Assembly (NCBI RefSeq): GCF_029688845.1
Contig: NZ_JARUKW010000011.1
Span: 1 to 64,000 of the forward strand
Direction: 5' to 3'
Source of the DNA: Natronococcus sp. A-GB1
Lineage (GTDB): Archaea; Halobacteriota; Halobacteria; Halobacteriales; Natrialbaceae
DNA length: 64,000 nt
A program made the position numbers and the translations under genes. Shown in pieces: positions 50,920 through 54,750 of this stretch (within the stretch, counting starts at the first letter, position 1; the number at the start of each line of letters is the position of its first letter). The notes beneath the pieces were generated by a model. It was not told the origin of the DNA and ran no database searches. It saw nothing but the letters and a program-made list of their open reading frames with translations.

Positions 50920-52206
50920 CTACTCGACGTCGAGCCGCAGTTCGTACGATTCGAGTTCGGCACAGATGCGGCTCCCGGCGTTGAACGAGCGCTCCTCTCC
51001 CGGTTCGAGGTCGACGTCGAACGAGCTCGATTCCGTCTGTGCCCCGTCGACATCTGTTGCACCGGCGCCATACATCACGATCTCGATGACTCCCGTTATC
51101 TGTTCGTCGGAGTCGTTTGCGGTGTCGGCGCTGACGCGACACTCCGACTCGTCGAACTCGTGGTCCTCGACCACGAAGACTTCCTCCGCCTCCGGGGTCG
51201 TCGTGATCTCGCCGTCGACGGCGCCGTCCTCGTGGTCGACTTCCTGGGCGTTCCACAGTTCCAGCGTGATCCGTGTCGCCTCGGTGCACGGATCGAGATC
51301 CTCGAACCGCGCCGAAAGATCCCTGCTACTGTCCGCGTCGATGCTCTGTGGAGATGCGGTTTCGGCTACCACGTCGGCACCGTCGTAGGCGGTGAACCTG
51401 TAATCGAACTGTAGGTAGCCCTCGTCGGCGTCCTCGCGGGAGATCGGGACACTCACTCCACAGCCCCGAACGCCGTACCCGTCGTACGTCTCGAACTCCG
51501 ATACCTCGAGTGGCGTTTCGTTCACGATCTCGGTTTCGTACCCCTCGGCCTCGAGTTCGACCGTGAGTTCGGTCTCGCCGTCGTGGACGTGCTCGACCGT
51601 CGCCGAGTCGTAGTCGGGATGGTCGACCGTGATCGTGTACTCGTTTTCGTAGATCGGCGTCGAGGCGACGCCGTCCTCGTCGGTCTCCGTATCGAACTCG
51701 AGGGGAATGTCGGCCTCGTGTGGCTCGCCCTCGCCGTCGATCTCGGCCCCTGCAATCGGCTCGTCCGCCGTGTCGGTGACCCGAGCGGTGATCTCGGAGG
51801 TCGGCGGTTTCTCGCCGTCGCTGTCGTCCGTGTCTTCCTCGTCTCCGTCTTCGCTATCCGCCGCCTCGCCGTCCGCCTCCTCGCCGTCTCCGTCTTCGCT
51901 ATCCGCCGCCTCGCCGTCCGCCTCCTCGCCGTCTCCGTCTTCGCTATCCGCCGCCTCGCCGTCCCCGTCTTCATCATCTGACTCCTCATCGTTGTCAGTA
52001 TTACCGTCTGTCCCGTCGTCCGCCTCGCCCTCGCTCGGTTCGTTCCCGCCGTCCGCTGGCTCCTCGTCGGATTCCGACTCCCCACTGTCGGTGGTCCCGT
52101 CGGTCCCGTCCGCCGTACCGTCCTCGGACCCGTCGTCCTCCGTACACCCGGCGAGGACGGTCCCCGCACCGACGCTGACTCCGGAGATAAACGTTCGTCG
52201 CTCCAT
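50920..52206 (-). CDS. Exported acidic lipoprotein with repeat linker and carboxypeptidase-regulatory-like domain
   Basis: A 428-residue protein. MERRTFISGVSVGAGTVLAGC is a Tat/lipobox signal. Residues ~22-135 are an Asp/Glu/Gly/Ser linker containing a perfect 15-residue repeat (GDGEEADGEAADSED). Then come a carboxypeptidase-regulatory-like beta-sandwich (ITARVTDTADEPIAGAEIDG) and a C-terminal domain (ETPLEVSEFETYDGYGVRGC; FNAGSRICAELESYELRLDV) shared with the lipoprotein at 55523. It is probably membrane-anchored, displayed outside, and a possible partner of the adjacent propeller. Five conserved Cys may form disulfides. Confidence 0.8.
   Translation of the reverse strand: MERRTFISGVSVGAGTVLAGCTEDDGSEDGTADGTDGTTDSGESESDEEPADGGNEPSEGEADDGTDGNTDNDEESDDEDGDGEAADSEDGDGEEADGEAADSEDGDGEEADGEAADSEDGDEEDTDDSDGEKPPTSEITARVTDTADEPIAGAEIDGEGEPHEADIPLEFDTETDEDGVASTPIYENEYTITVDHPDYDSATVEHVHDGETELTVELEAEGYETEIVNETPLEVSEFETYDGYGVRGCGVSVPISREDADEGYLQFDYRFTAYDGADVVAETASPQSIDADSSRDLSARFEDLDPCTEATRITLELWNAQEVDHEDGAVDGEITTTPEAEEVFVVEDHEFDESECRVSADTANDSDEQITGVIEIVMYGAGATDVDGAQTESSSFDVDLEPGEERSFNAGSRICAELESYELRLDVE
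51841..51964. repeat. 45-bp perfect tandem repeat inside the lipoprotein gene
   Basis: Two full 45-bp units (51841-51885, 51886-51930) and most of a third (to 51964), identical at DNA level. It encodes the 15-residue acidic repeat of the linker. DNA-level identity points to recent slippage or recombination and probable length variation among strains. Confidence 0.9.
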
Positions 52207-52296
52207 ACCGGTTGTCGACGGACGCTTCCCTAAAGTCTACTCATTGATATGTCGGCTCAGTTGGACACAGTGTTCGACGAACGAAAACGAGACGGG

Positions 52297-52641
52297 TTAT
52301 CGAACACGCTGGCGAACGTCGCGCAACCGCCCGGTAGCCGATTTAGACCCGGCGTCCCGGCGCTCGTGGTCGCGCCAGATCTCGGTGATAATCGGGCCGT
52401 CGAATCCCTCGTACACCGGCACGAGTCGCTCGAAGTCGATTTCCCCGTCGCCGATCTGGAGCCCCTCGCCGTCGACGCCGGCCGCGTCGGCGACGTGCAG
52501 GTATGCCGTGTGGGCCCGGAGAGCCCGGGCGTGCTCGACCAGATCCACGCCGGCGTAGTTACACCACAGTTGCCTTCGCTGGCCAACCGCCTCGCCTCGA
52601 GCAGATCGGATCGGAGCTCCATCGACTCGGTGTTGTTTCAT
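52297..52641 (-). pseudogene. C-terminal fragment of a sugar-phosphate isomerase/epimerase-type TIM barrel
   Basis: The frame encodes LVEHARALRAHTAYLHVADA, AGVDGEGLQIGDGEIDFERL and VPVYEGFDGPIITEIWRDHE. This matches the last strands of xylose-isomerase-like TIM barrels (the 'LHVAD..G....GEGEIDF' metal-site end). The first three-quarters of such an enzyme is missing and the upstream region is unrelated, so it is a remnant. Confidence 0.6.
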
Positions 52642-52756
52642 ACGGTTATTTTCCTGGCGGTTTCAAGCTCGACGGGAGGAGCCGATAACCGATGTTGGGC
52701 CACCGGCTGCTGCTGGTAAAGGCTTAACACTCCGTACGGCGTCTCTCGTCGAAACC

Positions 52757-53210
52757 ATGGTTGATGATCCCACTCGGGACGACGACGTGCAATCCGGTTC
52801 GGAGAGCGTTGGAGCCGAGAGAGAGAGAGAGACCTTCCCTCGCGGGAGATCCTGGAGCTAGATCACGTCTACGAGGCACTTGGCCACTCCCGTCGCCGGT
52901 ACCTCTGCTATACGCTGCTGGAGCGGGCGGAGTGGTCGCTGACCGACCTGGCGACGAAGATCGCCGCCTGGGAGAACGGCGTCCCCGAGCACGCGGTCAC
53001 CGATCTCCAGCGCGAACGGGTGTACGTCGCGCTCTACCACACCCACGTTCCGAAACTGGCCGACGACGACGTCGTTACCCTCGACGAGTCGACCGAAACG
53101 ATCGCGGCCGCCGAGAACGCCACCCAGGTCCTGGCCGCGCTCGAGGGAATGGGAACGACGCTGGACTCGAACCAGGAAACACACGCTCGAGGAGAGATGG
53201 ACAATGACAA
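52757..53210 (+). pseudogene. DUF7344 regulator out of frame at a (GA)8 tract (possibly phase-variable)
   Basis: ATG 52757 opens MVDDPTRDDDVQSGSESVGA, enters (GA)8 and stops soon after at a TAG. Two bases away in phase, the sequence after the tract reads DLPSREILELDHVYEALGHS, RRRYLCYTLLERAEWSLTDL and VYVALYHTHVPKLADDDVVT, a full DUF7344 domain. Deleting one GA unit restores one frame. The restored frame has no stop before the HalOD1 gene (it runs on to 53664), so a second lesion near the 3' end is possible. It pairs with the HalOD1 gene at 53204. Confidence 0.65.
52817..52832 (+). repeat. (GA)8 dinucleotide tract
   Basis: Sixteen bases of uninterrupted GA within the 5' coding part of the DUF7344 gene, at codon 21 onward. 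It is the only such microsatellite I noticed in the window. Confidence 0.9.
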
Positions 53211-53560
53211 ACAACGACAACGAAACCGAGCGGAACGGTTCGGATCTTGGCCGAGACACTCGCCGGCGGCAGGTTACACAGCGACACTACGACCCCGCTC
53301 GAGACGGGGACCTCACGACCGCGATCGTGTTCGCCGTCGCGGAAGCCGAGGGCGTCTCCCCGAGCGAGGTGACGTCACCACCGCTGTACGACTCGGTCGA
53401 CGTAGCGGCCATCGAGGACGCGTTCTTCGGGTCCGAGTCGGAATCCGAACCCCGACGGGGAGCGGGAGTCGTCGAGTTTCGCTACGTGGACTACCTCCTC
53501 AAGGTCAGGAGCGACGGCTGGATCCTGGTGTGCGAGTCGACCGGAGTCGATCCCTCGTGA
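53204..53560 (+). CDS. HalOD1 output-domain protein
   Basis: A 118-residue protein. The lead TNNDNETERNGSDLGRDTRR is followed by HYDPARDGDLTTAIVFAVAE, VTSPPLYDSVDVAAIEDAFF and VVEFRYVDYLLKVRSDGWIL, a complete HalOD1 domain. It lies directly behind the DUF7344 frame, mirroring the 30678/30398 pair, and converges on another HalOD1 gene at 53610. It is probably a signalling output or partner protein; the mechanism is unknown. Confidence 0.78.
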   Translation: MTNNDNETERNGSDLGRDTRRRQVTQRHYDPARDGDLTTAIVFAVAEAEGVSPSEVTSPPLYDSVDVAAIEDAFFGSESESEPRRGAGVVEFRYVDYLLKVRSDGWILVCESTGVDPS

Positions 53561-53609
53561 ACGCACGATTGTCCCTCGTGTCAGGCGGGGTACGGGCAGA
53601 ACGACGGTC

Positions 53610-53882
53610 TCAAGCGGTCGAGGCCACGCTGATATCGCCGTCGCCGGTAACCGTGACGGTGTAGCCGCAGTACTGGAAGGAGATCGTCCGAAGCGCACCG
53701 TCGTGGCTTCCGGCGACGAGGTCGTTCAGCGCGTCGGTGTCGATCACGTCGTAAAGCGGTGGGAGGTCGACCGGATCCGTATTCGAGACGTCCGCGACCG
53801 TGTACACCACGTCCGTCGTGAGCTCTCGTTTCGTCGTGCGCTCGGCCGGGCTACACCGATCGAAACTTCGTGTCTCAGTCAT
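53610..53882 (-). CDS. HalOD1 output-domain protein
   Basis: A 90-residue protein starting MTETRSFDRCSPAERTTKRE. Then LTTDVVYTVADVSNTDPVDL, PPLYDVIDTDALNDLVAGS and ISFQYCGYTVTVTGDGDISV give the whole HalOD1 pattern. The start at 53882 matches family length. It is convergent with the HalOD1 gene at 53204 (50-bp gap). Confidence 0.8.
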   Translation of the reverse strand: MTETRSFDRCSPAERTTKRELTTDVVYTVADVSNTDPVDLPPLYDVIDTDALNDLVAGSHDGALRTISFQYCGYTVTVTGDGDISVASTA

Positions 53883-54343
53883 TGCACTCCCATCCACCGT
53901 CCTCTCTGATATTCCTTGACCATGATTCTGAACCGTCGACGACAGTAGTGGTTGCTTACTACTGGCCTCACGCCGGACTGTCGTGCTTTCGCCCACAGCG
54001 AGGGAACTGGAAGGAAATCCGACCGTTCCCAACACCGGTACTCAGTGGAATGGATCCCGTCAGCGAAGCGCTCGAAGGTCGGGATGCGCTCCGACGACGG
54101 CCTCACCACCGGCGACGCGATCCCGGAGGGCCATCCACTCGAGGTGTCGAGCCAGAACAGTACCGGAACATGGCTTGCGCCGAGCAACGAGGCGACGGCA
54201 AAGCGGTGTTTGCCACACACCAGGAGCGGTTCACCGTCCCGACCGACGTCGACGGCGAGTTTGAGGAGTAGCTCGCTTCTCGACTGGATCGCCCCACCGC
54301 CTTGAACGGCGATTCTCCGAGACCAATTGTTATCGACCGACAC
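53883..54343 (-). pseudogene. Decayed fragment with a ParB/sulfiredoxin-like segment
   Basis: The minus frame contains VDVGRDGEPLLVCGKHRFAV, ASLLGASHVPVLFW. This resembles the 'VGRDGE.L..DGKHRLA.AKLLG...IPV' strand-helix of ParB-like domains found in haloarchaeal glycan-cluster proteins. The rest of the frame does not support an intact protein. Evidence is limited to this segment. Confidence 0.35.
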
Positions 54344-54750
54344 TATGTCTGACGAAAGTATTTACGGTAGAGTGTCCGACTGTCAATTGGCAGATCGGTA
54401 CCACCGGTGGGATGCCTGTTGCTATCGCCGCGTCCCGGCACTCGAGAGTCGTGGTGGGCTTGCTCGAGGTCGGTTCGTACGTACCGGTCGAGGATTCCGA
54501 TCCCGGTCGGTTTCGCCACCCTCGCGTCTGTTCTCGAGCCGTGTGTTTACCTGAACTCCGAGGCGACGTTTCGAGACGAACTCGACGACGCACTAGCTGA
54601 CACTCGGCAACGGGGCCACCAGTTCTATTCACCCTATAGTCGCCGGAAAGTATTTATCGAACCGCTCCGGAGTGGATACTGGCCGACGGAATACGCTCGA
54701 CAGCCATAGTACGCGGACTCCGGTCCGGCCCTCAGCCCTTTTCGGTGACG
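54344..54750. other. Spacer with an uncertain frame
   Basis: The plus frame ending at 54709 contains YLNSEATFRDELDDALADTR, QRGHQFYSPYSRRKVFIEPL, which has protein-like character. However, the preceding sequence is poor and no start is convincing. Possibly the 3' end of a lost gene. Confidence 0.3.

Follow-up and report, generated by a model that had tools for sequence, protein, structure and literature searches.

Probable recent loss of a DUF7344 gene by repeat slippage, with retention of its HalOD1 partner, in Natronococcus sp. A-GB1

Does a tract of eight GA units near the start of a predicted regulatory gene in Natronococcus sp. A-GB1 turn that gene on and off, or does it mark a gene that has been lost? 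The gene, a member of the DUF7344 family, lies on the forward strand of the window – the whole 64000-nucleotide stretch that was analysed, positions 1–64000 of one contig in a 4.5-Mb haloarchaeal draft genome of 57 contigs – and the tract sits at its codon 21, where the number of units sets the reading frame. A dinucleotide repeat near the beginning of a gene is a classical layout for a switch, and contingency loci of this kind, in which simple sequence repeats bring about phase variation, are best known in host-adapted bacteria. A preliminary description of the window put forward phase variation as a possibility. Our analysis points to a recently inactivated and dispensable member of a large, predicted winged-helix family, situated in a DUF7344–HalOD1 operon whose HalOD1 gene is intact; we place the probability of this reading at roughly 0.8.

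What the preliminary description said of the reading frames is correct. The original start codon, ATG at 52757, is present and is followed by 20 sound codons; the (GA)8 tract occupies exactly 52817–52832; and the frameshifted tail beyond it ends at a TAG (52859–52861), leaving a residual open reading frame (52757–52861, forward strand) of 34 codons with the translation MVDDPTRDDDVQSGSESVGAERERETFPRGRSWS. The DUF7344 domain (PF24035; 52870–53103, forward strand) is out of frame with that start codon, as had been claimed, and matches its Pfam family with an E-value of 2.6e-25 and 89 bits against a gathering cut-off of 27.8; seven GA units would open its frame. Read in codons from 52831, the domain frame has stops upstream at 52762–52767 and offers no ATG, GTG or TTG until GTG 53020, and the idea that the domain starts from a codon behind the tract is therefore rejected: it has no usable start of its own. 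Nor does this frame close before the next gene begins at 53204, a caveat already raised in the preliminary description. It stays open on the forward strand from 52831 to 53664, out of frame through HalOD1, and reaches its first stop only at 53662–53664. The tract itself is not a chance run, because it is the only (GA)8 in the entire 4.5-Mb genome – the remaining GA runs reach at most five or six units – and 100 dinucleotide-preserving shuffles of the 64-kb window produced no such tract. A viral origin is not indicated, one scan of viral contigs having found no relative.

The gene was compared with its orthologue in Natronococcus amylolyticus DSM 10524, the closest relative (NZ_AOIB01000031; L009/L039), in which both operon and synteny are conserved. 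Here the comparison with an intact orthologue that had been proposed could be made: the N. amylolyticus gene carries (GA)4, is in frame, encodes a protein of 151 residues, MVDDPTRDDDVQSGSESVGAERDLPSREILELDHVYEALGH...HARGEMDNDKQR, and ends at a TAG. Across the tract region the two genes are identical apart from (GA)4 versus (GA)8, and the difference is a perfect tandem copy; the four extra units add 8 bp to the A-GB1 gene, and the frame is thus lost. The short, in-frame form of the sister would probably be ancestral, with the expansion having taken place on the A-GB1 lineage. Beyond the indels the domain has hardly changed: amino-acid identity with N. amylolyticus is 98%, and four substitutions in three codons – too few to estimate dN/dS on the broken branch – separate the two sequences. 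Both of the resulting amino-acid changes more likely fell on the branch of the sister.

A second lesion lies at the other end of the gene. Relative to N. amylolyticus, A-GB1 lacks 21 bp at about 53210, between two copies of the 11-bp direct repeat GACAAACAACG, which now form a single junction at 53206–53216 (forward strand). The missing segment carried the DUF7344 stop codon, a TAG that in the sister falls just inside the overlapping HalOD1 gene; for HalOD1 the deletion is in frame. The direction of the change is given by an outgroup, Natronococcus sp. A-GB7 (L053), whose copy has the same 3′ end, ...HARGEMNDDEQR, with its TAG. Since N. amylolyticus and the outgroup both retain this codon, the deletion is derived and belongs to the A-GB1 lineage. 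Its consequence is that no tract length can restore the ancestral protein, the stop codon being gone: the in-frame unit numbers (n = 1 mod 3: 4, 7 and 10) specify products of 299–303 residues, in which a domain part of pI 4.8 is followed by a tail of 146 residues, 35 of them arginine, with a pI of 12. Further lesions had been named in the preliminary description as grounds for preferring simple decay to phase variation, and the deletion that took the stop codon is precisely such a lesion.

We envisage two slips. In the first, (GA)4 would have become (GA)8 within the variable N-terminal linker, so that translation stops after 34 residues; in the second, 21 bp would have been lost between the 11-bp repeats where the gene overlaps HalOD1, removing the DUF7344 stop while keeping the HalOD1 frame. 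Slippage is the probable maker of both indels. The cell would then have lost one of its 47 DUF7344 matches and retained HalOD1, and the locus probably yields no functional DUF7344 protein. The lesions are recent, since the region from 51.0 to 54.5 kb mostly differs from N. amylolyticus by about 1% or less, against 4.8% (about 5%) across the aligned window. This patch (51000–54500) is a probable recent recombination tract, and its low divergence suggests exchange between the lineages. In sum, the A-GB1 and N. amylolyticus operons share locus and synteny, and about 99% nucleotide identity within the patch; the latter differs in its short, in-frame tract, in retaining the 21 bp with the TAG, and at two nonsynonymous positions.

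Is such a loss unusual for the family? We compared about 20 distinct DUF7344 orthologues. All retain the domain sequence, or a remnant of it, behind an N-terminal linker that varies, they begin at ATG, and none has a GA tract save the short (GA)4 of N. amylolyticus; conservation of the tract across the family is thereby ruled out. The gene is broken in four further lineages, each time by a lesion that does not involve a GA tract: an N-terminal frameshift in the genome G052 (L012), a one-base frameshift in Saliphagus infecundisoli (L018/L052), a frameshift near the C-terminus of one copy in Halomicroarcula sp. SYNS111 (L051), and truncation to the last 24 codons in A-GB7. Sequencing error could account for some of the one-base changes. 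In A-GB7, around position 3001 of L053, unrelated DNA replaces the gene up to those 24 codons and an intact HalOD1 gene follows; in each of the four lineages HalOD1 can be recognised and its frame is open. Loss of one DUF7344 gene in A-GB1 is plausibly tolerated because the genome holds 47 DUF7344 matches, and redundancy within the family would account for it. With more than one disabling lesion (an 8-bp frameshift and a stop-codon deletion) and with intact, syntenic orthologues in N. amylolyticus and many other genomes, the locus has the marks of a pseudogene. It resembles slippage-made pseudogenes of large paralogue families – in its indels at repeats, its intact partner, its many paralogues and the losses in other lineages – and differs from them solely in how recent it is.

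As to what was lost, we found no mention of DUF7344 in the literature searched. A confident AlphaFold2 model of the domain (pLDDT 88.5) is winged-helix-like; a Foldseek search with it gave a best E-value of 0.07, which is not significant, with none at or below 0.001, and many of the top matches were winged helices of the ArsR/MarR type at a query TM-score of about 0.3–0.5. The domain may bind DNA through a winged helix. The partner gene encodes HalOD1 (PF18545; 53204–53560, forward strand; E-value 2.5e-14), is intact at 118 residues, and aligns in frame with its counterpart in N. amylolyticus. HalOD1, a signalling output domain of haloarchaea, is frequently stand-alone and present in many copies (PMC5847659), and one HalOD1 protein, DdfA, influences cell shape in Haloferax volcanii (PMC10869688). 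HalOD1 accompanies DUF7344 in the orthologous operons, and it is natural to regard the two as a putative regulator pair.

The surroundings contain further features. A second HalOD1 gene (53610–53882, reverse strand; E-value 3.8e-24) converges on the first, and we noticed no adjoining DUF7344 partner. Directly upstream of the DUF7344 gene, the reverse strand at 52297–52641 holds what is left, at the C-terminal end, of a TIM-barrel gene resembling xylose isomerase (AP_endonuc_2, E-value 6.6e-6, below the cut-off), an older gene fragment that is also found in N. amylolyticus. Farther out, a predicted lipoprotein gene (50920–52206, reverse strand) contains a 45-bp tandem repeat at 51840–51964 – 2.8 copies, 100% identical – that encodes an acidic linker and has one copy fewer, in frame, in N. 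amylolyticus.

Where else, then, do such tracts occur? A survey of (GA)8 in 125 genomes of the taxonomic family found many long GA tracts in all five genomes of one genus (G018, G044, G111, G112 and G113) and none in most others. In that genus the tracts run from (GA)8 to (GA)26, with many per genome, and are mostly preceded by TC, often ATC, that is, ATC(GA)n. By a test of GC content by codon position, which is approximate, 28 of the 30 tracts sampled (L054–L083) lie outside predicted genes, as do 28 of 31 in a second sample; the notion that coding sequence is where GA tracts typically lie in the taxonomic family is accordingly rejected. Some occupy orthologous sites in different species with differing unit numbers (L063/L069, L059/L083). 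In the three single-contig genomes that were searched for Orc1/Cdc6 (G018, G112 and G113), the strand of the tract follows the direction of the replichore for 39 of 39 listed tracts, flipping once at the Orc1/Cdc6 gene with the best score and a second time in the interval holding the opposite point of the chromosome. These oriented tracts could be a replication-oriented element or the product of strand-biased expansion; a literature search, of few queries and narrow in scope, found no description of them.

Phase variation would have GA units gained and lost at a high rate, with DUF7344 ON at n = 4, 7 or 10 and OFF otherwise, and with the assembly having captured the OFF state. Much about the tract is congenial to this: it lies close to the 5′ end of the gene, it is the sole (GA)8 of the genome, and its unit number (8 versus 4) differs between close relatives with opposite outcomes for the frame. 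As in contingency loci, the frame depends on a short dinucleotide repeat inside the 5′ part of the coding sequence, n = 1 mod 3 opening that of the domain; here, though, the gene encodes a predicted regulator and not a surface or restriction-modification protein. The domain, moreover, shows little decay apart from the two indels, a counterpoint to the pseudogene reading, since a phase-variable gene that had recently been switched off would look equally undecayed. Yet every ON length now also reads the 146 out-of-frame, arginine-rich residues, so that no intact ON form is left, and the tract is neither maintained nor variable among orthologues other than N. amylolyticus. Losses of DUF7344 in other lineages came about without GA repeats, and 56 of the 61 other tracts of at least eight units sampled in the taxonomic family fall outside predicted genes. 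Polyploidy and copy-equalising gene conversion, as described in an account of Haloferax volcanii (PMC11276520), would by analogy oppose slips in single copies. We therefore judge phase variation very unlikely, and reversible switching likewise. A more elaborate version, in which (GA)7 and (GA)8 toggle between the 34-residue stub and a DUF7344 protein of 301 residues, newly extended by a basic tail that is read from HalOD1 in another frame – perhaps with an effect on HalOD1 output through translational coupling – we consider highly improbable. Of the original proposal, then, one part survives: slippage of GA units did break the frame, as the otherwise identical sister sequence attests; the reversible switch is not supported, given the deleted stop, the absence of the tract from the other orthologues compared and the losses without GA.

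Two other accounts were weighed. The true tract might be in frame, or the 21-bp deletion mis-assembled: the genome is a draft in 57 contigs, and direct repeats are places where assemblies err. But reads of any kind are long relative to a dinucleotide run of 16 bp or to an 11-bp repeat with a period of 21 bp, and an artefact would require two separate errors in one gene, which makes it very unlikely. Rescue at the level of expression might come from a slip of one GA unit during transcription or translation – both RNA polymerase and the ribosome could slip on such a repeat – or from initiation at a non-standard codon, for instance CTG 52852. The rescued frame would still have no stop before 53662, however, and the orthologues, beginning as they do at ATG, need no rescue; we hold this to be exceedingly unlikely. 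Recent inactivation remains our preferred reading, and because the second change also removed the end signal of the gene, the locus has the appearance of ordinary gene loss and not of an on/off switch.

Were the tract a true switch, the gene would be a rare archaeal example of phase variation through simple repeats. As we read it, the locus provides a clear case of the recent loss, by repeat slippage, of one of many DUF7344 genes while the HalOD1 partner stayed in place. The case shows the two to be separable in evolution, and it serves as a warning that a 5′ repeat in a broken gene need not mean a contingency locus.
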